Shown in pieces: positions 37,532-64,000 of a DNA stretch of 64,000 nt. Position 1 is the first letter of the stretch. The number at the start of each line of letters is the position of its first letter. The position numbers were made by a program, and so were the translations under genes. The stretch comes from Ulva prolifera (taxonomy: Eukaryota; Chlorophyta; Ulvophyceae; Ulvales; Ulvaceae). The notes beneath the pieces were generated by a model, which was not told the origin of the DNA, did not search any database, and saw only the letters and a list, made by a program, of their open reading frames with translations. The DNA lies in contig CM041201.1 of the NCBI GenBank assembly GCA_023078555.1, positions 2,177,713 to 2,241,712 on the forward strand, written 5' to 3'.

Positions 37532-37877
37532 TATTTATTAAGGCTCAGTCCGTGGAATTGAGTGCTCTCGCTAGTCAAGGGCTTTGATTGGGAGTCTTTG
37601 GCCTTGCAAGCACTTGCATGATATTGCGTGCACGCAGCGTAGCACCTCCGCATGCTCACAGGTGGACATGAACCTTCGTGGCTGTAGGAGATTGTGATGT
37701 ATGCATTGCAGAGTCCAATTTCCAGCCGCCCGTCCTCGGCTGGAATTGATCCGTGGAGTTGAGTGTCCTCGCTAGTCAAGGGCTTTGATTGGAAGTCATC
37801 GGCCTTGCAAGCACTTGCATGTTATTGTGCGCACGCAGCGTAGCACCTCCTTATGGTCAGAGGTGGACATGGTCTAT
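37532..37877 (+). repeat. satellite array, 200-bp unit without LINE tail
   Basis: Nearly two copies of the unit that starts around GTCCGTGGAATTGAGTGCTC and runs through CTAGTCAAGGGCTTTGATTG to CAGCCGCCCGTCCTCGGC. None contains the LINE-tail insert found in the large array, so this is the unmodified state. Confidence 0.85.
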
Positions 37878-39261
37878 CAAGTTACACATACCGGGCCATT
37901 ATATGGCAAAGCAAACAAATACACCAAGCCAAAGAGCAACCGGCTGCCACCATAGCAATGATGCATTTGTGGTTGGTTGTTCTCTGGGGTTTTTGGCTGT
38001 GTTGCTTTCTTGTGGTTGCTAGTGTGGCAGCCGGTCGCTGGTTTGGCTTGATGTTGTTTGTTTGCTTTGCCATACAATGGCCAGACATGTGTAACTTAAT
38101 ATACCATAGCAATGACCAAATCTCAACCTAGCAAAAGACTCAGACAACATCTAAAAACAAACACATAAAACGCGCCACAACCAAAGCTCTCAACCCAGAA
38201 AAGCATCCACCGGCACATCAAAGCCATGGGTTAAATGCTTGCCGCACGACCGGGCGACTGCCGTCAGCGAGTGCGCGTGCATTTCCGCATTTCCCTTCTG
38301 CAACACACACGAAAGCAACTTGTACGCATTCATCACAAACACCGACTTGGAGACGCGGCCTGATGCCGCAGCAATCTCACCCAACTCCCGGATGTACTCC
38401 TCCGCCCGCGGCGCGAGCTTCCCATAGGACTCAACAGCAAACGGAACAAACTCATACTGCGGCTTATCGGCAAACTTCTCCCAATCATTCCGCTTGAGCT
38501 TCTCCGCAACCTTCGCCGCCGAGGCATCCTCCCTATACGACCCCTTACGCAAAGCATCCTTCCCAAGCGGATGCGTCACCGTCACGTCCACCATGACATG
38601 ACGCCCCCCTGGCAGGATGGCGAGGATTTCAGCCCTGTGCCGCCCCACTTTCCCTGCTCCGTGATCCCCATGCACGCCGGCGTACGGCGGCTCCATGCTC
38701 GTGGGCACCGAAGCACAAGAATGAATATGGCGCATTGCAAAAGCAAATTTATCATGGCGCGACGAAAGTTTCTTGTTGTTTCGGGTGCACAGCATAGGGT
38801 GATCGCCGCGTCCGATGCTCTCGCCGGAGCAATCGCACGGCGGCATCTCCACGGGGCCGCTGACTCGCTCACCGAGGCGGTGGCGAAGGATGGTGGTGAG
38901 GGAGAGGTTACCGATGGTGGTGTCCAGCCGTTGCCGGCCGGGGAGGGCGGACAAGAAGGCGCTACCGGGGGCGCCGCGGGCACTGCGCACACGAGCAGCA
39001 CCGAGCCTGCCTGCCTTCGTGCTCAAGTCCATCCCGTCCAGGAACGCCTTGACGGCCTTCTCACCCATGGACCTGGACACAGCATGTTGCAAGGAGGGGA
39101 GAACATGACGCACGCCTTTGCAAGAGAGGTCCGCCGGAGAGCCACCGTCGATCTTCCTGGAGACCTTCGTGACCCACTCCTCGACGTCAGGCAAGATGCC
39201 GCGGACGCAGTTCAGTCCTGCTGCAGGACCGGCGCGGCCGGCCCGTCGAGCCGCTGGAACA
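37878..39261 (-). mobile_element. LINE copy D, 5'-truncated, interrupted by a LINE tail
   Basis: The 3' end is AAGTTACACATACC at 37878 on the plus strand. The coding remnant (38190 to about 39261, minus) covers the last 350 codons with the Cys-His motif (CDCSG...GDHPMLC) and the restriction-like endonuclease (RAEILAILPGGRHVMVDVTV). The frame is open, but RT is lost. A plus-strand tail is nested at 37962-38102. Confidence 0.85.
37962..38102 (+). mobile_element. LINE 3' tail nested in LINE copy D, 13-bp TSD
   Basis: The 141-bp insert is flanked by ACCATAGCAATGA at 37949-37961 and 38103-38115. It runs opposite to its host element, giving head-to-head inverted tails. Confidence 0.9.
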
Positions 39262-39448
39262 CGGCGGTGGTTGGTCGTTGTCTGGGGTTTTTTGCTGTGA
39301 TGCTTTCTTGTGGTTGCTGGTGTGGCAGCCGGTCGCTGGGTTGGCTTGATGTTGTTTGTTTGCTTTGCCATACAATGGCCAGATATGTGTAACTTAATGA
39401 CAAGAAAGCATCACAACAAAAAACCCCAGACAACAACCAACCACAAAT
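39262..39448. mobile_element. opposed LINE 3'-tail fragments
   Basis: A plus-strand LINE tail (39262 to about 39396, ending GTGTAACTT) abuts an internal piece of the tail in minus orientation (about 39400-39448). I found no duplication around them, so rearrangement rather than simple insertion is likely. Confidence 0.7.
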
Positions 39449-39459
39449 GCAAGGCCAAT

Positions 39460-40057
39460 TACTCCCATTCAAAGCCCTTGACTAGCGAGAGCACTCAACT
39501 CCACGGATTAAGCCCAGCCGAGTACGGGCGGCTGGAAATTGGTCTGTGCAATGCATACATCACAATCTCCTACAGCCACGAAGGTCCATGTCCACCTCAG
39601 ACCATAAGGAGGTGCTACGATGCGTGCGCGCAATATCATGCAAGTGCTTGCAAGGCCAATGACTCCCAATCAAAGCCCTTGACTAGCGAGAGCACTCAAT
39701 TCCACGGACTAAGCCCAGCCGAGGACGGGCGGCTGGAAATTGTCTCTGCAATGCATACATCACAATCTCCTACAGCCACGAAGGTCCATGTCCACCTCTG
39801 ACCATAAGGAGGTGCTACGCTGCGTGCGCGCAATATCATGCAAGTGCTTGCAAGGCCAATGACTCCCAATCAAAGCCCTTGACTAGCGAGAGCACTCAAT
39901 TCCACGGATTAAGCCCAGCCGAGGACGGGCGGCTGGAAATTGTCTCTGCAATGCATACATCACAATCTCCTACAGCCACGAAGTTCCATGTCCACCTCTG
40001 ACCATAAGGAGGTGCTACGCTGCGTGCGCGCAATATCATGCAAGTGCTTGCAAGGCC
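39460..40057 (-). repeat. satellite array, three 200-bp units, minus orientation
   Basis: The motif TCCACGGA recurs at 39500, 39701 and 39901, so the period is 200-201 bp. There is no LINE tail inside. The array is cut at 40057 by the copia LTR, inside the word GCAAGGCC. Confidence 0.92.
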
Positions 40058-40303
40058 TGTCGAGAGAAATGGGTTTAGTCTAGGCCAGTGTGAACATGCA
40101 TGTAGTTGACGCACTTGTGTGATCATGAGGGTCGTGACAGAAGGGCGTACTCTGCATATATAGTCTAGATGTGGGCAGTGAGCTCTATCGAGTCTCACTG
40201 ACCTTCCCTCTGTCACGACAGGTATGTCTACATCTCTGCATCGTTCATGTCATGCTCCCGTCTCTGTAAGTCGAGTCTCACTGACCTTCCCTCTGTCACG
40301 ACA
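40058..40303 (+). repeat. LTR of copia A (246 bp)
   Basis: Begins TGTCGAGAGAAATGGG and ends CTGTCACGACA. A TATATA at 40157-40162 is a plausible promoter. The last 30 bp or so (GAGTCTCACTGACCTTCCC...ACAGG) also occur about 85 bp upstream, so the LTR has an internal copy of its own 3' end. Confidence 0.9.
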
Positions 40304-40314
40304 GGTTATGGGCC
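40304..40314 (+). promoter_or_regulatory. primer-binding site, half-tRNA-iMet type
   Basis: GGTTATGGGCC directly follows the LTR. It is complementary to the GGCCCATAACC anticodon-stem/loop region of initiator tRNA-Met rather than to the tRNA 3' end. That is the arrangement known for Drosophila copia and Volvox Osser. Confidence 0.8.
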
Positions 40315-40333
40315 TTTTTACGGATCCACTGCG

Positions 40334-41251
40334 ATGAATCTCAAAGATGTGAAGTTAGGCTTAGATCTAACTCCCACCAACGCAGTCCAATGGTTCCATC
40401 GTATGGAGCTATTGCTGCGCAGCGTCAGTTGCTGGAAGGTGGTCACAGAGGACGAAGGCACAGAGTCGATCAAAAATGCTGCCCGGCTTGCGATCTCATG
40501 CAACGTCGGAGACGACCTGATACATATTGTCAGCACGTCAGCTACTCCCAAAGAGATATGGGATGCCCTGAAGAAGCAGTTCTCAGGCGTGAGCGCAGCA
40601 CGGAAGATGGCTTTATCTCGCAGCCAAGCTTGCTTCCGAAAGTCTGCAGATGAGTCACTCGATCAGTTCATAACGAGAGCAGAGCAGCTCCGAGCTGAAC
40701 TAGCATCAGCACAGATGTTGAAAGAAGAAGAATTTGTTCTAGTCTTCCTTGCAGCTTTAGATGAATCCTCATATACGTCATGGGCGCAAGCAATTGCAGC
40801 ACAAGCAGAGCTTCCCACATTCGCGGATGTGACAGAGAATCTTCGTGGTACGTTTTACCAGAAGTTGCACACCACCGGTAGCACCTCGCAATCCGAGGCT
40901 TACCACACAGGTAGTACCCACTCTCAGCAAGAGTGTGACTACTGCCACCACAAGGGTCACCATATCCTTCAATGTTTCAAATTGAAAAATGATCAGCAAG
41001 CAGCACAGAGTGATCCCGGGTACAAGCAAGGCAGAGGCCGTGGTAGAGGCCGTGGCCGAGGCAGAGGCCGAGGCAGAGGTCATGGCCGTGGCTCCTATGC
41101 CAACCACACCAGTGCATTTGTCTGCATCGCTGCAACCAAGGTTGCAACTGACAGGTCCAAGTGGTTATTCGACTCAGCTTCGACTGACCACATGGTGAAT
41201 GACCCCACCGTTCTCCATGATGCCAAGCCCTTCAGCTCCAAGTGCACAGTT
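40334..41251 (+). pseudogene. copia A gag-protease fragment
   Basis: Starts MNLKDVKLGLDLTPTNAVQW. It contains a UBN2-type gag domain, a CCHC zinc knuckle (CDYCHHKGHHILQC), an RG-rich basic stretch and the protease motif WLFDSASTDHMV. The frame is interrupted at 41251 by the TRIM and resumes at 41573 with VANKQTAEVTAVGTVQL for about 45 codons. Integrase and RT are missing. Confidence 0.9.
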
Positions 41252-44162: not shown

Positions 44163-45163
44163 CTTCGTGGCTGTAGGAGATTGTGGCAGCTGGTCAGTTG
44201 TTTGGCTTGATGTGTTTGTTTGCTTTGCCATACAGGCCCGGTATGTGTAACTTTATCCCACTCGTGGCTGTAGGAGATTGTGATGTATGCATTGCAGAGT
44301 TCAATTTCTAGCCGCCCGTCCTCGGCTAGGATCAATCCGTGGAGTTGAGTGTCCTCGCTAGTCAAGGGCTTTGATTGGGAGTCATCGGCCTTGCAAGCAC
44401 TTGCATGTTATTGCGCGCACGCAGCGTAGCACCTCCTCATGGTCAGAGGTGGACATGGACCTTCGTGGCTGTAGGAGATTGTTGGCAGCTGGTCAGTTGT
44501 TTGGGTTGTTGTGTTTGTTTGCTTTGCCATACAATGGCTTGGTATGTGTAACTTTATCCCACTCGTGGCTGTAGGAGATTGCGATGTATGCATTGCAGAG
44601 ACCAATTTCCAGCCGGCCGTACTCGGCTGGGCTTAATCTGTGGAGTTGAGTGCTTTCGCTAGTCAAGGGCTTTGATTGGGAGTCATTGGCCTTGCAAGCA
44701 CTTGCATAATATTGTTGCACTTGGCTGTTGTCCAGGTTGTTGGCTGAGGTGAGCTTCGCTGGTTGCTTGTGTGGCAGCTGATCAGTTGTTTGGCTTGATG
44801 TGTATGTTTGCTTTGCCATACAATGGCCCGGTATGTGTAACTTGTACTTGCATGATATTGCGCGCACGCAGCGTAGCACCTCCTTATGGTCAAGTGTAAC
44901 TTTATCAATCCTTATGGTCAGAGGTGGACATGGACCTTCGTGGCTGTAGGAGATTGTGGCAGCTGGTCAGTTGTTTGGCTTGATGTGTTTGTTTGCTTTG
45001 CCATACAGGCCCGGTATGTGTAACTTTATCCCACTCGTGGCTGTAGGAGATTGCGATGTATGCATTGCAGAGACAATTTCCAGCCGCCCGTCCTCGGCTG
45101 GGCTTAGTCCGTGGAATTGAGTGCTCTCGCTAGTCAAGGGCTTTGATTGGGAGTCAGTGGCCT
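44163..45163 (+). repeat. satellite array with LINE-tail-bearing units
   Basis: The 200-bp satellite, mixed with units carrying the LINE tail between copies of TCGTGGCTGTAGGAGATTG. Two tail variants occur: one with the normal GCCATACAATGGC hairpin, one with ATG lost (GCCATACAGGCCC). The array is cut at 45163 by the LTR of copia C. Confidence 0.88.
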
Positions 45164-45409
45164 TGTCGTGACAGAGGGAAGGTCAGTGAGACTCGACTTA
45201 CAGAGACGGGAGCATGACATGAACGATGCAGAGATGTAGACATACCTGTCGTGACAGAGGGAAGGTCAGTGAGACTCGATAGAGCTCACTGCCCACATCT
45301 GGACTATATATGCAGAGTACGCCCTTCTGTCACGACCCTCATGATCACACAAGTGCGTCAACTACATGCATGTTCACACTGGCCTAGACTAAACCCATTT
45401 CTCTCGACA
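45164..45409 (-). repeat. 3' LTR of copia C
   Basis: Matches the LTR of copia A and the right LTR at 56466-56709 almost base for base. Downstream in the sense direction comes AGGCC and satellite. Confidence 0.9.
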
Positions 45410-52084: not shown

Positions 52085-54233
52085 CGGCGTAAGTTACACA
52101 TATCTGGCCATTGTATGGCAAAGCAAACAAACAACATCAAGCCAAACCAGCGACCGGCTGCCACACCAGCAACCACAAGAAAGCATCAAAGCAAAAATCC
52201 CAGACAACAACCAACCACAAATGCATCAAACGCCCCACGACCAGAGCACTCAACCCACAAAGTCATCCACCGGAACATCAAAGCCATGGGTGAAATGCTT
52301 GCCGCACGACCGGGCGACGGCCGTCAGTGTGCGCGCATACATTGTGGCATTGCCCTTCTGCAACACACACGAAAGCAACCTGTACGCATTCATCACAAAC
52401 ACCGACTTGGAGACCCGGCCTGATGCCGCAGCAATCTCACCCAACTCCCTGATGTACTCCTCTGCCCGCGGCCCGAACTTCCCATAGGACTCAACCGCAA
52501 ACGGAACAAACTCATACTGCGGCTTATCAGCAAACTTCTCCCAATCACTCCGCTTGAGCTGCTCCGCGACCTTCGCCGCTGAGGCATCCTCCAGGTGCGA
52601 CCCCCTACTCAAAGCTTTCTTCCCGAGCGGGTGCGTCACCGTCACGTCCACCATGACATGACGCCCCCCCGGCAAGATCGCGAGGATGTCCGCCCGGTGC
52701 TCCCCCACGGCCCCAGCCCCGTGCTCCCCATGCACGCCGGCATACGGCGGCTCAATGCTCGTGGTCACCGAAGCACAAGAATGAAGATGGCGCATTGCAA
52801 GAGCAAAATCATCATGGCGCGACGAAATATCCTTGTTGTTTCGAGTACACAGCATAGCATGGTCTCCGCGTCCGACGCTCTCGCCGGAGCAATCGCATGG
52901 CGGCATCTCCACGGGGCCGCTGACTCGCTCACCGAGGCGGTGGCGAAGGATGGTGGTGAGGGAGTGGTTACCGATGGTGGTGTACAGCCGCCGCCGGCCA
53001 GGGAGGGCGGACAAGAAGGCGCTGCCAGGGGCACCGCGGGCACTGCGCACTCGAGCAGCACCGAGCCTGCCTGCCTCTGTGCTCAAGTCCATGCCATCCA
53101 GGAACGCCTTGCCGGCCTTGTCACCCATGGACCTAGACACTGCATGCTGCAAAAAGGGGAGAACATGACGCACTCCTTTGCTGGAGAAGTCCGCCGGTGA
53201 GCCACCATCGATCTTGTCGGAGACCTTCGAAACCCACTCCTCGACGTCGGGCAAGACGCCGCGTATGCAGTCCCAGTCGCGCTGCATCGCCGGCGCGGCA
53301 GGCCCGTCGAGCCGCTGGAACACGGCAGGGCCGTCAGCAACGACCCGTTGAGCCACCGCGACGCCGGTGAGCAACGCCGCTTTCGCCTCAACTGGGTGGG
53401 TCATACGCAGCCTAAGGCCGCCGTGGCGAATCGGCAACAACATCTGCTGCACTGCCGAGCTCATCTGAACGAGCACGCCAGACGGATCCTGCGTGACCGG
53501 CACCTGCGCAATGCTCGCCACCGCGGCGACGACAACGCCTTCGAGGGCGCGTGTCGACTCGGCCAGGAGCTCCCACCTGGTCGTGCGCTGGTGGTGCACC
53601 ATGCGGACGGCAAATGACTGCCGGAGCAGCAGCAGCTGTACCTGCTTGGTGACCGGCAAGCGCATGAGCCGATCGATCTCCGCGATTGCCTTCGCGGCAG
53701 CGGCTTTCAGCCGCGCGCGGACGAAGGCGTCGGTGCCGACGTGGGTGCCGACCACTGTGATGCCGTCCTCTCTGTGGGGCACGCCGGTGGACTGCTGGAT
53801 GGCACGACACTCTTCGTGCGCCTCGGCACAGGGCGCAAACACGCCACTCTTACCCGGCACGATGGTGAGGCCGACCGAGCGCGCGCTGCCCGGACCATCC
53901 CCGCAGAGGCGGCCTAGGACCTTGCGCAACGCAGGCCCGCGGCCCACGGCAGTGAAGTCATCGAGGTACGACATGCTGGGCGCCTCCGGGACTGCTGCCG
54001 CTAGTGCCGTCAAGACTTCCTGGAAGCCCAATGCAAACAGCAGCGGCCCCAGCGGGTCGCCCTGCCGCACCCCACGCTGCGACTCAATCACAGTGCCGCT
54101 AGCGGCACCCACCACATGGAGTTGGGTGGCGGCACCGTACCCGAATTGGAAGAACGGGAGCAGCTCCGGCAGCGCTTTCAAAACCCCGCGCGCAACGGCG
54201 GTGCGGTGGATCTCGTTGAAAGCATTCCGCATG
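52085..54233 (-). mobile_element. LINE with restriction-like endonuclease, 5'-truncated, 14-bp TSD
   Basis: A 2149-bp insertion in copia C between two copies of CTGCTCTGGTTGCT (52071-52084 and 54234-54247). The 3' end is GCCATACAATGGCCAGATATGTGTAACTTA without poly(A). It is the longest copy here and defines the family. Confidence 0.95.
52250..54232 (-). CDS. LINE RT / RLE endonuclease, N-terminally truncated
   Basis: 660 open codons. The first ATG is only the 5'-truncation point, so the fingers of the RT are missing. RT motifs are RGVRQGDPLGPLLFALGF (about residue 54) and the catalytic SYLDDF (about 94). Near 445 lies a CxC...H...C cluster (PPCDCSGESVGRGDHAMLC) followed by RHD. From about 510 comes a PD-(D/E)XK-type endonuclease: HRADILAILPGGRHVMVDVT, then Lys in AAKVAEQLKRSDW. 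RT followed by a Cys-His knuckle and RLE is the order of R2/NeSL-type elements, and the RLE part of Dualen/RandI elements of Chlamydomonas. Probably inactive because truncated, but no internal stop. Confidence 0.9.
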   Translation of the reverse strand: MRNAFNEIHRTAVARGVLKALPELLPFFQFGYGAATQLHVVGAASGTVIESQRGVRQGDPLGPLLFALGFQEVLTALAAAVPEAPSMSYLDDFTAVGRGPALRKVLGRLCGDGPGSARSVGLTIVPGKSGVFAPCAEAHEECRAIQQSTGVPHREDGITVVGTHVGTDAFVRARLKAAAAKAIAEIDRLMRLPVTKQVQLLLLRQSFAVRMVHHQRTTRWELLAESTRALEGVVVAAVASIAQVPVTQDPSGVLVQMSSAVQQMLLPIRHGGLRLRMTHPVEAKAALLTGVAVAQRVVADGPAVFQRLDGPAAPAMQRDWDCIRGVLPDVEEWVSKVSDKIDGGSPADFSSKGVRHVLPFLQHAVSRSMGDKAGKAFLDGMDLSTEAGRLGAARVRSARGAPGSAFLSALPGRRRLYTTIGNHSLTTILRHRLGERVSGPVEMPPCDCSGESVGRGDHAMLCTRNNKDISSRHDDFALAMRHLHSCASVTTSIEPPYAGVHGEHGAGAVGEHRADILAILPGGRHVMVDVTVTHPLGKKALSRGSHLEDASAAKVAEQLKRSDWEKFADKPQYEFVPFAVESYGKFGPRAEEYIRELGEIAAASGRVSKSVFVMNAYRLLSCVLQKGNATMYARTLTAVARSCGKHFTHGFDVPVDDFVG

Positions 54234-56435
54234 CTGCTCTGGTTGCTGGTTGACCTGCGGATGCGGCATTGCTGTCTCCATCAGATTAGAGCAGTCGTTG
54301 TCAATCCGGGCATCGCTGGCAGGTGCTGCTGATTCATCAAACTTGACATCCCTTGAGATGATGACTGAACCACTGGGCAACAAAACTCTGTATGCTTGGA
54401 AGTTTGGCTGGGCAAACCCAAGGAACTTGCCCACTGAAGATTTGGGCGGAAGCTCACCCTTTTTGCGCTTCTGCGCTGGAATCTTGTAGAGGCATGTGCA
54501 GCCCCACACATGCAAGTCACTGATGTCAGGCTTGCTGCCTTTGAGCAGCTCCCATGCGGACGGGCCGCCATTGCTGCTCATGATATTGGAGAGGTATGCA
54601 GCATGCACCACTGCCTCTGCCCAATATATATTCTTTAAACCGGAATCCGACAATAGGGCATCACGAATGTCCGAGGTGCTGCCGATGCCGCGCTCAGCAT
54701 GCCCGTTCTCCGGCGGGCTGTAGCCAGATGTAGGCTGTGGCTCAATGTGAATGCTTTTGAACCATGCTTTCATGCGGTTTGAGAGGAACACTGCATCTCG
54801 ATCAAACCGCATGTACTGGACTTTTGAATCGTACTTGTTTTCAAGCCTCGGGATGATGTCCATGAGGCAGTCTGCAGCATCTGACTTGCGAGCAATTGGA
54901 GTTACGAGCTTGTAGTTGCTGAAGTCATCAACAATCATGAGATAATAATTAGCCTTGCCCGGTGTCGTCACAAAAGGACCAGCAATGTCCACATGAAGCT
55001 TCTCTAGCTTCTTGGTTGCACGTTGGTGTGAGGCTGGAAATGGTTTGCGTTTCATCTTGCCTTCAGCACATGGTGTGCATACGGCTGTTGATTGGAGCTG
55101 CTGTTCAAATGCTTGTGGTGGCGGCAATCCGCGCACTGTTTCACCTCTTGACATCTTTGCAAGGGTGCTGTGGCCAGCATGGCCAAGTCTGCGATGCCAT
55201 AGGATGGCATTGTCTGAGTGGGACACGTTGGCAGCCTGTATGTCAGGCGCGGAGCCCGAGAGCACGGGCTTGCATCGCACCTCGTAGAGACCATTTGTCA
55301 AAGGCCCTACCAGCAGCTCTGTACGCTGATCCCTGAGGATGATTTTGTTGTTTTGGCCAGAGTAGGACAAACCTGCTTCGTCTGCACGGCTGAGAGAGAT
55401 GAGGTTGTGCTGTAGAGTGGGGACGAGCAAGACGCCTTTGAGAGTGACCTGGTTACCATGATGGTTGGTGAGCTGCACAGTGCCAACTGCGGTGACTTCG
55501 GCTGTCTGTTTGTTGGCAACTGTGCACTTGGAGCTGAAGGGCTTGGCATCATGGAGAACGGTGGGGTCATTCACCATGTGGTCAGTCGAAGCTGTGTCGA
55601 ATAACCACTTGGACCTGTCAGTTGCAACCTTGTTTGCAGCGATGCAGACAAATGCACTGGTGTGGTTGGCATAGGAGCCACGGCCACGACCTCTGCCTCG
55701 GCCTCTGCCTCGGCCACGGCCTCTATCACGGCCTCTGCCTTGCTTGTACCCGGGATCACTCTGTGCTGCTTGCTGATCATTTTTCAATTTGAAACATTGA
55801 AGGATATGGTGACCCTTGTGGTGGCAGTAGTCACACTCTTGCTGAGAGTGGGTACTACCTGTCTGGTAAGCCTCGGATTGCGAGGTGCTACCGGTGGTGT
55901 GCAACTTCTGGTAAAACGTACCACGAAGATTCTCTGTCACATCCGCGAATGTGGGAAGCTCTGCTTGTGCTGCAATTGCTTGCGCCCATGACGTATATGA
56001 GGATTCATCTAAAGCTGCAAGGAAGACTAGAACAAATTCTTCTTCTTTCAACATCTGTGCTGATGCTAGTTCAGCTCGGAGCTGCTCTGCTCTCGTTATG
56101 AACTGATCGAGTGACTCATCTGCAGACTTTCGGAAGCAAGCTTGGCTGCGAGATAAAGCCATCTTCCGTGCTGCGCTCACGCCTGAGAACTGCTTCTTCA
56201 AGGCATCCCATATCTCTTTGGGAGTAGCTGACGTGCTGACAATATGTATCAGGTCGTCTCCGACGTTGCATGAGATTGCAAGCCGGGCAGCATTTTTGAT
56301 CGACTCTGTGCCTTCGTCCTCTGTGACCACCTTCCAGCAACTAACGCTGCGCAGCAATAGCTCCATACGATGGAACCATTGGACTGCGTTGGTGGGAGTT
56401 AGATCTAAGCCTAACTTCACATCTTTGAGATTCAT
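54234..56435 (-). pseudogene. copia C gag-protease-integrase (5' piece)
   Basis: From ATG at 56435. Gag (MNLKDVKLGLDLTPTNAVQW), zinc knuckle CDYCHHKGHHILQC, protease WLFDTASTDHMV, pre-integrase ILWHRRLGHAGHSTLAKMSR and integrase (LHVDIAGPF, MRFDRDAVF, SPPENGHAER). The frame is open until the LINE at 54233 interrupts it at HPQVNQQPEQ. Confidence 0.93.
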
Positions 56436-56454
56436 CGCAGTGGATCCGTAAAAA

Positions 56455-56465
56455 GGCCCATAACC
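56455..56465 (-). promoter_or_regulatory. primer-binding site of copia C
   Basis: GGTTATGGGCC on the minus strand, abutting the 5' LTR at 56466; same half-tRNA-iMet site as in A. Confidence 0.8.
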
Positions 56466-56709
56466 TGTCGTGACAGAGGGAAGGTCAGTGAGACTCGACT
56501 TACAGAGACAGGAGCATGACATGAACGATGCAGAGACATGGACATACCTATCGTGACAGAGGGAAGGTCAGTGAGACTCGATAGAGCTCTACCCACATCT
56601 AGACTATATATGCAGAGTACGCCCTTCTGTCACGACCCTCATGATCACACAAGTGCGTCAACTACATGCATGTTCACACTGGCCTAGACTAAACCTATTT
56701 CTCTGGACA
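56466..56709 (-). repeat. 5' LTR of copia C
   Basis: 244 bp, nearly identical to the LTRs at 40058 and 45164. The right flank is a LINE coding fragment, not satellite. Confidence 0.9.
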
Positions 56710-60239: not shown

Positions 60240-60484
60240 CTCCTGTGGCTGTAGGAGATTGTGATGTATGCATTGCAGAGTTCAATTTCCAGCCGCCCGT
60301 ACTCGGCTGGGCTTAATCCGGGGAATTGAGTGCTCTCGCTAGTCAAGGGTTTTGATTTGGAGTCATTGGCCTTGCAAGCACTTGCATGATATTGCGCGCA
60401 CGCAGCGTAGCACCTCCTTACGGTCAGAGGTCGACATGGACCTTCGTGGCTGTAGGAGATTGTTGGCAGCTGGTCAGTTGTTTG

Positions 60485-60526
60485 TTTGCTTTGCCATACA
60501 ATGGCCAGATATGTGTAACTTGATAA
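60485..60526 (+). mobile_element. 42-bp LINE tail inside a composite satellite unit, 14-bp TSD
   Basis: Flanked by TGGTCAGTTGTTTG at 60471-60484 and 60527-60540. The insert has the ...GGCCAGATATGTG form, so it is a newer, different subfamily than the tail it landed in. Confidence 0.9.
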
Positions 60527-61111
60527 TGGTCAGTTGTTTGGGTTGTTGTGTTTGTTTGCTTTGCCATACAATGGCTTAGTATGTGTAACTTTATCCCACT
60601 CGTGGCTGTAGGAGATTGTGATGTATGCATTGCAGAGTTCAATTTCCAGCCGCCCGTACTCGGCTGGGCTTAATCCGTGGAATTGAGTGCTCTCGCTAGT
60701 CAAGGGCTTTGATTGGGAGTCATTGGCCTTGCAAGCACTTGCATGATATTGCGCGCACGCAACGTAGCACCTCCTTACGGTCAGAGGTGGACATGGACCT
60801 TCGTGGCTGTAGGAGATTGTTGGCAGCTGGTCAGTTGTTTGGGTTGTTGTGTTTGTTTGCTTTGCCATACAATGGCTTGGTATGTGTAACTTTATCCCAC
60901 TCGTGGCTGTAGGAGATTGCGATGTATGCATTGCAGAGACCAATTTCCAGCCGGCCGTACTCGGCTGGGCTTAATCTGTGGAGTTGAGTGCTTTCGCTAG
61001 TCAAGGGCTTTGATTGGGAGTCATTGGCCTTGCAAGCACTTGCATGATATTGCGCGCACGCAGCGTAGCACCTCCTTACGGTCAGAGGTGGACATGGACC
61101 TTCGTGGCTGT

Positions 61112-61188
61112 GGATAAGTTACACATATCTGGCCATTGTATGGCAAAGCAAACAAACAACATCAAGCCAAACCAGCGACCGGCTGCCA
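61112..61188 (-). mobile_element. 77-bp LINE tail inserted in the satellite, 14-bp TSD
   Basis: Flanked by ACCTTCGTGGCTGT at 61098-61111 and 61189-61202. Minus orientation, opposite to the amplified tails around it. Confidence 0.9.
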
Positions 61189-64000
61189 ACCTTCGTGGCT
61201 GTAGGAGATTGTTGGCAGCTGGTCAGTTGTTTGGGTTGTTGTGTTTGTTTGCTTTGCCATACAATGGCTTGGTATGTGTAACTTTATCCCACTCGTGGCT
61301 GTAGGAGATTGTGATGTATGCATTGCAGAGTTCAATTTCCAGCCGCCCGTACTCGGCTGGGCTTAATCCGTGGAATTGAGTGCTCTCGCTAGTCAAGGGC
61401 TTTGATTGGGAGTCATTGGCCTTGCAAGCACTTGCATGATATTGCGCGCACGCAGCGTAGCACCTCCTTACGGTCAGAGGTGGACATGGACCTTCGTGGC
61501 TGTAGGAGATTGTTGGCAGCTGGTCAGTTGTTTGGGTTGTTGTGTTTGTTTGCTTTGCCATACAATGGCTTAGTATGTGTAACTTTATCCCACTCGTGGC
61601 TGTAGGAGATTGTGATGTATGCATTGCAGAGTTCAATTTCCAGCCGCCCGTACTCGGCTGGGCTTAATCCGTGGAATTGAGTGCACTCGCTAGTCAAGGG
61701 CTTTGATTGGGAGTCATTGGCCTTGCAAGCACTTGCATGATATTGCGCGCACGCAACGTAGCACCTCCTTACGGTCAGAGGTGGACATGGACCTTCGTGG
61801 CTGTAGGAGATTGTTGGCAGCTGGTCAGTTGTTTGGGTTGTTGTGTTTGTTTGCTTTGTCATACAATGGCTTGGTATGTGTAACTTTATCCCACTCGTGG
61901 CTGTAGGAGATTGCGATGTATGCATTGCAGAGACCAATTACCAGCCGGCCGTACTCGGCTGGGCTTTATCCGTGGAATTGAGTGCTCTCGCTAGTCAAGG
62001 GCTTTGATTGGGAGTCATTGGCCTTGCAAGCACTTGCATGATATTGCGCGCACGCAACGTAGCACCTCCTTACGGTCAGAGGTGGACATGGACCTTCGTG
62101 GCTGTAGGAGATTGTTGGCAGCTGGTCAGTTGTTTGGGTTGTTGTGTTTGTATGCTTTGCCATACAATGGCTTGGTATCTGTAACTTTATCCCACTCGTG
62201 GCTGTAGGAGATTGCGATGTATGCATTGCAGAGACCAATTTCCAGCCGGCCGTACTCGGCTGGGCTTAATCTGTGGAGTTGAGTGCTTTCGCTAGTCAAG
62301 GGCTTTGATTGGGAGTCATTAGCCTTGCAAGCACTTGCATGATATTGCGCGCACGCAGCGTAGCACCTCCTTACGGTCAGAGGTGGACATGGACCTTCGT
62401 GGCTGTAGGAGATTGTTGGCAGCTGGTCAGTTGTTTGGGTTGTTGTGTTTGTTTGCTTTGCCATACAATGGCTTGGTATGTGTAACTTTATCCCACTCGT
62501 GGCTGTAGGAGATTGTGATGTATGCATTGCAGAGACCAATTTCCAGCCGGCCGTACTCGGCTGGGCTTAATCTGTGGAGTTGAGTGCTTTCGCTAGTCAA
62601 GGGCTTTGATTGGGAGTCATTGGCCTTGCAAGCACTTGCATAATATTGTTGCACTTGGCTGTTGTCCAGGTTCTTGGCTGAGGTGAGCTTCGCTGGTTGC
62701 TTGTGTGGCAGCTGATCAATTGTTTGGCTTGATGTGTTTGTTTGCTTTGCCATACAGGCCCGGTATGTGTAACTTTATCCCACTCGTGGCTGTATGAGAT
62801 TGTGATGTATGCATTGCAGAGTTCAATTTCCAGCCGCCCGTACTCGGCTGGGCTTAATCCGTGGAATTGAGTGCTCTCGCTAGTCAAGGGCTTTGATTGG
62901 GAGTCATTGGCCTTGCAAGCACTTGCATGATATTGCGCGCACGCAGCGTAGCACCTCCTTACGGTCAGAGGTGGACATGGACCTTCGTGGCTGTAGGAGA
63001 TTGTTGGCAGCTGGTCAGTTGTTTGGGTTGTTGTGTTTGTTTGCTTTGCCATACAATGGCTTAGTATGTGTAACTTTATCCCACTCGTGGCTGTAGGAGA
63101 TTGTGATGTATGCATTGCAGAGTTCAATTTCCAGCCGCCCGTACTCGGCTGGGCTTAATCCGTGGAATTGAGTGCACTCGCTAGTCAAGGGCTTTGATTG
63201 GGAGTCATTGGCCTTGCAAGCACTTGCATGATATTGCGCGCACGCAACGTAGCACCTCCTTACGGTCAGAGGTGGACATGGACCTTCGTGGCTGTAGGAG
63301 ATTGTTGGCAGCTGGTCAGTTGTTTGGGTTGTTGTGTTTGTTTGCTTTGTCATACAATGGCTTGGTATGTGTAACTTTATCCCACTCGTGGCTGTAGGAG
63401 ATTGCGATGTATGCATTGCAGAGACCAATTACCAGCCGGCCGTACTCGGCTGGGCTTAATCTGTGGAGTTGAGTGCTTTCGCTAGTCAAGGGCTTTGATT
63501 GGGAGTCATTGGCCTTGCAAGCACTTGCATGATATTGCGCGCACGCAGCGTAGCACCTCCTTACGGTCAGAGGTGGACATGGACCTTCGTGGCTGTAGGA
63601 GATTGTTGGCAGCTGGTCAGTTGTTTGGGTTGTTGTGTTTGTTTGCTTTGCCATACAATGGCTTAGTATGTGTAACTTAATCCCACTCGTGGCTGTAGGA
63701 GATTGTGATGTATGCATTGCAGAGTTCAATTTCCAGCCGCCCGTACTCGGCTGGGCTTAATCCGTGGAATTGAGTGCTCTCGCTAGTCAAGGGCTTTGAT
63801 TGGGAGTCATTGGCCTTGCAAGCACTTGCATGATATTGCGCGCACGCAACGTAGCACCTCCTTACGGTCAGAGGTGAACATGGACCTTCGTGGCTGTAGG
63901 AGATTGTTGGCAGCTGGTCAGTTGTTTGGGTTGTTGTGTTTGTTTGCTTTGCCATACAATGGCTTGGTATGTGTAACTTTATCCCACTCGTGGCTGTAGG

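Follow-up and report, generated by a model that had tools for sequence, protein, structure and literature searches.

Long interspersed nuclear element (LINE) tails in an amplified satellite of Ulva prolifera: empty monomers, insertion scars and composite units

The composite array and its source element

The window analysed here, i.e. the whole stretch of 64,000 nucleotides at C6:2177713-2241712 in the genome of the green alga Ulva prolifera (88.9 Mb in 44 contigs), contains the left end of a tandem satellite array whose regular units each carry the 3′ tail of a LINE retrotransposon. LHCII-like light-harvesting proteins point to the green lineage. The window has a GC content of 56.7%, and an Rfam scan returned no match in it at the gathering threshold. 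From position 60245 onward, on the forward strand, the sequence repeats with a period of 301 bp, each composite unit being made of a 201-bp satellite core, an 81-bp LINE 3′ tail and a 19-bp target-site duplication. In the regular layout the 81-bp insert lies between two copies of the 19-mer, the downstream one of which opens the next core. In an example unit on the forward strand, the upstream copy of the duplication (TCGTGGCTGTAGGAGATTG) occupies positions 63286-63304, the tail 63305-63385 and the downstream copy 63386-63404, within the core at 63386-63586. The unit arithmetic given in a preliminary description of this DNA is borne out by decomposition of the units, and its coordinates for the 19-mer match exactly. 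Its assignment of the region 60240-64000 to 301-bp units holds in that the array is real, except that satellite homology starts at 60245 and that spacings of 357, 392 and 287 bp also occur; its bounds were too narrow, since tail-bearing units are also found at 44.16-45.17 kb and the array (60245-64000 in the window) runs on to C6:2298471. The total span is about 60.5 kb, within which the satellite core sums to 34,754 bp; a 100-N gap in the assembly cuts the array at its end, so that array size and copy numbers are lower bounds.

To the left of the array, at 36806-59015, lies an island rich in LINE and Copia sequences, with nested fragments and Copia open reading frames (ORFs), which surrounds further copies of the satellite. 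Tail-free monomers are found at 37542-37872 (forward strand), and a tail-free trimer (3.0 copies with a 200-bp period) at 39448-40057 (reverse strand), where the preliminary description had placed unmodified 200-bp units. A LINE tail at 37876-37949 (reverse strand) adjoins the former and is a further insertion of the family. No match to the tail is present in positions 1-36805 of the window or in the 10 kb to its left, and 40 kb sampled further to the right (L045-L048) gave one. Within the island, 40180-41251 and 55518-56589 form an inverted pair of 1072 bp, 99% complementary and 14 kb apart, lying over Copia gag-type ORFs, with near-identical pieces nearby.

The family from which the tails derive is represented in the window by a copy at 52091-54232 on the reverse strand, the 3′ end of which contains the tail sequence. 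Its reverse transcriptase (RT) ORF (52250-54232, Pfam RVT_1) stops about 160 bp short of the terminal tail sequence at 52091. The features by which membership in a LINE family is recognized, namely a common 3′ end, variable 5′ truncation and RT-encoding relatives in the genome, are all present. Furthermore, among 47 dispersed tails, 22 are flanked by a perfect repeat of 10 bp or more, which is the case in 2.1% of 940 mismatched controls. All 22 duplications differ from one another, those of two tails (L024 and L029) by a single base. Target-site duplications of variable sequence, such as insertion of LINE 3′ tails by target-primed reverse transcription would leave, are thus seen at the tails. 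The possibility that the tail is a free-standing short element was rejected, as, by eye, many dispersed copies extend upstream into the LINE and their truncation points vary.

Near full-length copies of the LINE are found inside the array at L010:5681-9343 and C6:2279716-2281796, the former with a 1220-aa open frame, and the family may have been active recently. The RT domain of the 1220-aa frame is recognized as Pfam RVT_1 (E 2e-10), which is the only Pfam match at E up to 0.1, with no endonuclease of the apurinic/apyrimidinic (APE) type among the matches. Against the PDB at E up to 0.01, the same frame finds only 9nl2, a protein of the R2 retrotransposon, with a weak score (E 6e-5), and the 660-aa RT fragment of the window finds 8gh6 (E 0.009), which we take to be R2 as well, and 9nl2 (E 0.1). 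The motifs CDC...H...C and RAD...DVTV near the C-terminus are kept between two copies of the LINE; a cysteine-histidine knuckle together with RAD...DVTV would presumably fit a restriction-like endonuclease. The single conserved gene target typical of R2 is not seen, given the lack of identical pairs among the 22 duplications.

A probable single insertion, its amplification and its polarity

The insertion present in the regular 301-bp units (event E1, at what will be called site A of the monomer) can be followed through the array by means of patterns of different stringency. When the 3′ end of the tail was used as the sole anchor, 173 places were found, and the 19-mer lies directly downstream in 151 of them (146 exact, 5 with one mismatch) and on both sides of the tail in 130, whereas a control span further upstream contains it, with up to two mismatches, in none of the 173; chance is therefore an implausible source of the duplication. 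Of the 22 anchored ends that lack the downstream 19-mer, the micro-tail E9 accounts for 21 and a unit broken by a near full-length LINE (E11) for the remaining one. The 21 anchored tails with the downstream 19-mer only compare with the 20 expected from chimeras between E1 and another insertion, E3 (34 E3 5′ junctions less 14 3′ ends of its own). An exact 36-base 3′ junction has 140 matches genome-wide, all in a 76-kb stretch (C6:2221957-2298388), its reversed control having none.

A stricter pattern retrieves 127 complete tails of 17 distinct sequences, 85 being the 81-bp tail and 32 a 78-bp variant, which share their 3′ end and, within one base, their truncation point. The two duplications of a unit are identical in 60 cases and differ by one base in 66, figures that are partly built in, as this pattern requires the duplication and leaves only two of its positions free; the count anchored on the tail 3′ end, which makes no such demand, agrees with it. 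Because insertion point, duplicated 19-mer and 3′ end are the same throughout the 301-type units, and because monomers empty at this point exist on both C6 and C1, the best reading is that this class results from one insertion followed by tandem amplification. The proposal of the preliminary description that one insertion spread by tandem amplification stands for the 301-type class and is incomplete otherwise, since at least 11 further LINE-derived insertions and recombination between tails have also shaped the array. Likewise, the expectation that every tail-bearing unit shares the same insertion point and duplication holds for the 301-type, but the other classes differ, each with a duplication of its own and thus a separate event.

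One feature of the tails themselves counts against a single event. Several positions distinguish the 81-bp from the 78-bp variant, and the two are in part associated with different core clades, as would be expected if two independent insertions at site A had been followed by mixing between monomers or by conversion. On the other hand, the variants have a common duplication and 5′ ends within one base of each other, AACTT is followed by the eight bases TATCCCAC in both, and hybrids between them exist, so that two insertions are considered unlikely, albeit the most serious of the alternatives to a single one.

The order of events can be read from the empty sites. Core-to-core junctions without a tail number 11 in the array (10 called by script and one read by eye from the script's list) and four in positions 1-60000 of the window (three called by script and one by eye), in a procedure whose fuzzy left edge put many rows wrongly under ‘other’. 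A related satellite on C1, with a period of 181 bp and about 69% alike over long alignments, is empty at the site in 10 of 10 monomers, and tail-free monomers, which the preliminary description required elsewhere in the genome, are thus at hand. A tree was built from the 109 complete cores that passed a length filter, those with other inserts being left out. It comprises 43 different cores of C6 and is rooted with nine monomers of C1; it consists of two clades, in each of which the tail-free monomers from outside the array are basal (support 0.84 and 0.79), those at 37542-37872 in clade I and the trimer at 39448-40057 in clade II. Tail-bearing units occur in both clades, which implies that tails have moved between core lineages. 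A lone fragment 71% alike to the C1/C6 satellite lies at C3:6970749-6970890, outside any island.

Judged from the monomers compared, the polarity is from empty to filled. The reverse order, in which the 301-bp unit would be ancestral and the 200-bp units would have arisen by deletion between the 19-bp repeats, has in its favour that recombination between the duplications would excise the tail cleanly, so that some tail-free monomers of the array could be revertants. The tail-free junctions of the array read GGGTG in 10 of 11 cases and GGTTG in one, while the downstream duplications of filled sites read GGCTG in 126 of 127, which favours the order proposed here; yet GGGTG also occurs in 6 of the 127 upstream duplications beside tails, so that tail-free and tail-bearing monomers of the array are not fully distinct, which weighs against it. 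Nevertheless, an ancestral 301-bp unit was rejected and is regarded as the least probable of the alternatives considered, in view of the empty C1 monomers, the basal position of the tail-free monomers outside the array, and the identity of the tail as a LINE 3′ end that is found at many places with other flanks. As the preliminary description had it, the state before the insertion, the scar and the state after it are together in one window, in the form of the empty monomers, the E1 scar and the amplified units.

Recurrent insertion, recombination and a second satellite family

When the array was decomposed with the monomer as reference and the duplications were identified by eye, 12 LINE-derived insertions were found in the C6 satellite, i.e. 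E1 and at least 11 more in the array of about 60 kb. Five of the 12 are present in three or more copies, four of these being amplified in addition to E1. The junction patterns, which allow up to one substitution and give lower bounds, count 128 copies of E1, 34 of E3, 32 of E9, five of E6, three of E4 and one of each of the other seven. The remnants range from the last 16 to the last 252 bp of the LINE, besides two near full-length copies of about 4.5 kb, E10 with a 16-bp duplication and E11, on the forward strand, with an 11-bp one. E3 is a 131-bp tail at monomer position 152 with a 15-bp duplication (ACTTGCATRATATTG), an unrecombined copy of which, at 44715-44845 (forward strand), lies in the separate small block of tail-bearing units at 44165-45165 (forward strand) together with both E1 tail variants and the 16-bp micro-tail E9, which has a 12-bp duplication. 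E4 sits on the minus strand within the E9 duplication; E5 and E6, also on the minus strand, have duplications of 14 and 11 bp, respectively, and E8 is a 252-bp insert with an 11-bp duplication. E2 is a single tail in opposite orientation (61112-61189, reverse strand; one copy), whose own 13-bp duplication overlaps site A. E12 and E13 are nested within tails, an E1 tail carrying E12 being found at 60464-60599 (forward strand). The assignment of E9, E13 and the C5 insert described below, of 16-23 bp, is less certain, as it is made from short matches and duplications of 7-12 bp, and this also speaks against the picture of recurrent insertion.

The distribution of these events over the monomer bears on the alternative that the LINE is site-specific and entered site A repeatedly and independently, without any need for amplification. 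Three events lie at or beside this site, namely E1 and the full-length E11 on the plus strand at the same base and E2 on the minus strand within 10 bp, and the duplications of L024 and L029, as mentioned, nearly coincide; this hint of a preferred site counts against the reading favoured here. However, by a hand estimate, a coincidence of two events out of about nine at the same base and strand would arise by chance in roughly 9% of cases, so that the clustering is only mildly unlikely and an insertion hotspot at site A is possible. Independent insertions of the E1 type would be expected to differ in their 5′ truncation points, and no such variation is seen among the 127 complete tails with their common ends and only 17 sequences; furthermore, E3, E5, E6, E8 and E9 occupy other positions of the monomer and the 22 dispersed duplications include no identical pair. 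Strict site-specific insertion was rejected on these grounds and appears improbable, and one insertion of E1 followed by amplification is retained.

Amplification did not proceed by copying of whole units only. E3 has 34 upstream junctions and only 14 downstream junctions of its own, the remainder leading into the E1 3′ end to give units of 287-289 bp; an example in the window is the chimera at 62649-62783 (forward strand), a 287-bp unit in which the longer tail at monomer position 152 is joined to the 3′ end of E1. Hybrid tails between the 81-bp and 78-bp variants of E1 are also found. Since tails recombine, their spread involved more than simple tandem copying. On a larger scale, multi-kilobase blocks are repeated with 98-99% identity, the commonest shift for exact 600-mers being 2.3 kb. 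These exact repeats may be mis-assembled, which is a further point against the reading of the array as amplified, and a more extreme version would have the array inflated by repeat collapse and re-expansion, in keeping with the 100-N gap at its end and the frequency of exact repeats over 600 bp. Such an artefact is very improbable, given that single-copy events (E2, E5, E8, E12, E13 and the two near full-length LINEs) differ among units and that the first 3.7 kb of the array, in the window, contain no N. Also in the array on C6, at L009:7138-7459, a 322-bp insert has two direct terminal repeats of about 88 bp (TGTCAGG...TGACA) and a 5-bp duplication (GTCAT), as read by eye, and presumably is a miniature long terminal repeat (LTR) element, similar to terminal-repeat retrotransposons in miniature (TRIM).

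Insertion of the same LINE into satellites extends beyond C6, as found in 8-kb samples of four other islands (C2, C3, C4 and C5). The C3 sample, L059 (C3:8318001-8326000), consists over nearly its entire length of a 121-bp satellite (about 60 copies at 92%) and includes one tail with a 15-bp near-duplication containing one mismatch. The C5 and C4 samples (L056 and L057, respectively) contain higher-order satellites based on 55/110 bp, with periods up to 831-901 bp, which are 77-79% alike and give no match to the C6 family; the C2 sample has LINE tails without a large satellite. In the C4 sample a LINE tail lies in six places with near-identical flanks and a near-duplication (ACAATGAA-ACA) with one mismatch, read by eye, and its exact junction has 15 matches, all in C4:5704206-5748920. 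In the C5 sample a 23-bp micro-tail has ACTCCACGT on both sides in three places, and its junction pattern has 62 matches, all in C5:6921953-6979218. By hand count 32 of these are of a T form of the micro-tail and 30 of an A form; the A form, where sampled, is preceded by another sequence and may go back to an event of its own, which detracts from a single origin of the C5 class. Amplified tails of the LINE thus also occur in a second family of satellites, that of C4 and C5, with insertion points and tails that differ by contig and are each confined to their own contig.

The last nine or so bases of the tail (GTGTAACT and the sequence next to it) are present in nearly all tails read, micro-tails included, and are shared by the satellites of C6 and of C4/C5, which are otherwise unrelated. 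Among amplified tails the variation is 0.002 in the last 20 columns versus 0.027 in the first 60, a difference that is mostly made by the few sites separating the variants and is no test of selection. It is doubtful, though conceivable, that the tail is functional, its terminal bases giving kinetochore chromatin a common motif, or giving centromeres a stretch of homology through which they could exchange sequence; in that event the LINE would spread a centromere element to many chromosomes.

Taken in sequence, the steps, to which as a whole a probability of roughly 85% is assigned, are as follows. A LINE whose copies cluster in islands, as a rule one island to a large contig, inserts by target-primed reverse transcription into the local repeats, many of the insertions being strongly 5′-truncated. 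On C6 an 81-bp tail entered a 201-bp monomer with duplication of 19 bp, and the resulting 301-bp composite spread over the array of about 60 kb by tandem amplification and recombination between monomers, as the pattern indicates, possibly through unequal exchange or gene conversion. Further tails entered the satellite at other points, on either strand; some of them were amplified in turn, and recombination between tails generated new unit lengths.

Candidate centromeres and related systems

The best relatives of the LINE are grouped in islands at C1 919-975, C2 3155-3204 and 9124-9141, C3 8301-8383, C4 5672-5792, C5 6903-6987, C6 2215-2281, C7 4417-4594 and C10 1550-1571 kb. Genome-wide protein searches scored the best 67 of 1378 LINE candidates and the best 77 of 836 Copia candidates; the islands, which make up 1.09% of the genome, contain 47 of the 53 LINE matches listed and 58 of 73 Copia matches, or 59 of 81 when eight rows of lower identity (one inside, seven outside) are added, as opposed to 0 of 19 matches for a second LINE family (38-39% identity). 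As the islands were outlined after the matches had been seen, p-values for enrichment are not independent of the outlining. The islands are probably centromeres, as suggested by their position and composition; the two islands of C2 and the absence of any on C8 and C9 among the matches listed tell against this interpretation. The C3 island has no Copia match among those listed. The contig with two islands (C2, 3.10-3.21 Mb and 9.10-9.17 Mb) may go back to the fusion of two chromosomes, to the loss of a centromere or to a misjoin. Tandem repeats of 72 bp, perhaps coding, occur on the right side of the C6 island at L045:4258-6747 and L047:3776-5236, and inspection by eye of the terminal 150 bases at four contig ends showed no telomere repeat.

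The comparison with known systems draws on the portions of the cited papers available to us. Green-algal centromeres built of LINE or Copia elements have been described (PMC11005252, PMC8226300), and by analogy the islands would resemble these transposon centromeres. In particular, Zepp and ZeppL are LINEs that cluster at green-algal centromeres, at one place per chromosome, as nested and mostly 5′-truncated copies (PMC8226300, PMC11005252), and the C6 LINE is likewise clustered, nested and truncated. However, these elements are of the L1 type, with endonuclease and RT, whereas the ORF of the Ulva LINE has RT, no APE-type endonuclease in Pfam and R2-type proteins as nearest solved relatives; as far as tested, it would therefore fall outside the L1-type Zepp elements. 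Furthermore, an absence of tandem satellites from two Chlorella centromeres is reported (PMC11005252), in contrast to the prominent satellites of the Ulva islands.

The closest parallel for one LINE lineage entering one satellite repeatedly is found in Cuscuta europaea, where L1-CS LINEs are repeatedly inserted into the CUS-TR24 satellite and their monomer positions have been mapped (PMC8091179). In that case a compound monomer arising from a single insertion was disfavoured, while in Ulva it is seen, with its empty sites, beside recurrent insertion; older compound satellites, such as Sobo, are named in the same paper. In sunflower, where CENH3 chromatin immunoprecipitation (ChIP) was carried out, the centromeric HaCEN-LINE is present on almost all chromosomes and a 187-bp repeat on one chromosome pair (PMC4628103). 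The combination of a LINE with a chromosome-specific tandem repeat is shared with Ulva, but the centromeres of Ulva are candidates, and the portion of that paper at hand describes no LINE tail inside the 187-bp repeat. Composite satellites have been proposed to arise from ‘graveyards’ of transposable elements (TEs), the monomers containing pieces of several of them (PMC12628747), and the maize satellites CRM1TR and CRM4TR are entirely TE-derived (PMC3648361). TE pieces in monomers are common to these cases and the present one, which differs in retaining the monomer from before the insertion, the scar and the resulting unit. Non-LTR elements concentrated at centromeres are also known from poplar (the LINE Celine, with target-site duplications unique to each copy; PMC11288735) and Drosophila (G2/Jockey-3, in a setting where satellites replace retroelement-rich centromeres; PMC11620609), but an amplified compound monomer is not reported in the parts of these papers considered. 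In the openly licensed literature searched, no title describing this locus was seen, and no case was found that combines an empty monomer, a scar, an amplified unit, repeated further insertions and recurrence in a second satellite family.

The formation of composite satellites from TEs is a known process, of which the Ulva locus is a well-documented new variant, recurrent and with each step visible. The origin and takeover of centromeric satellites is a long-standing question, the intermediate steps usually being erased, and the Ulva locus lets the mechanism proposed for composite satellites (PMC12628747) be traced event by event. If the islands are indeed centromeric, Ulva prolifera would provide a genome of the green lineage in which transposon and satellite centromeres are mixed.

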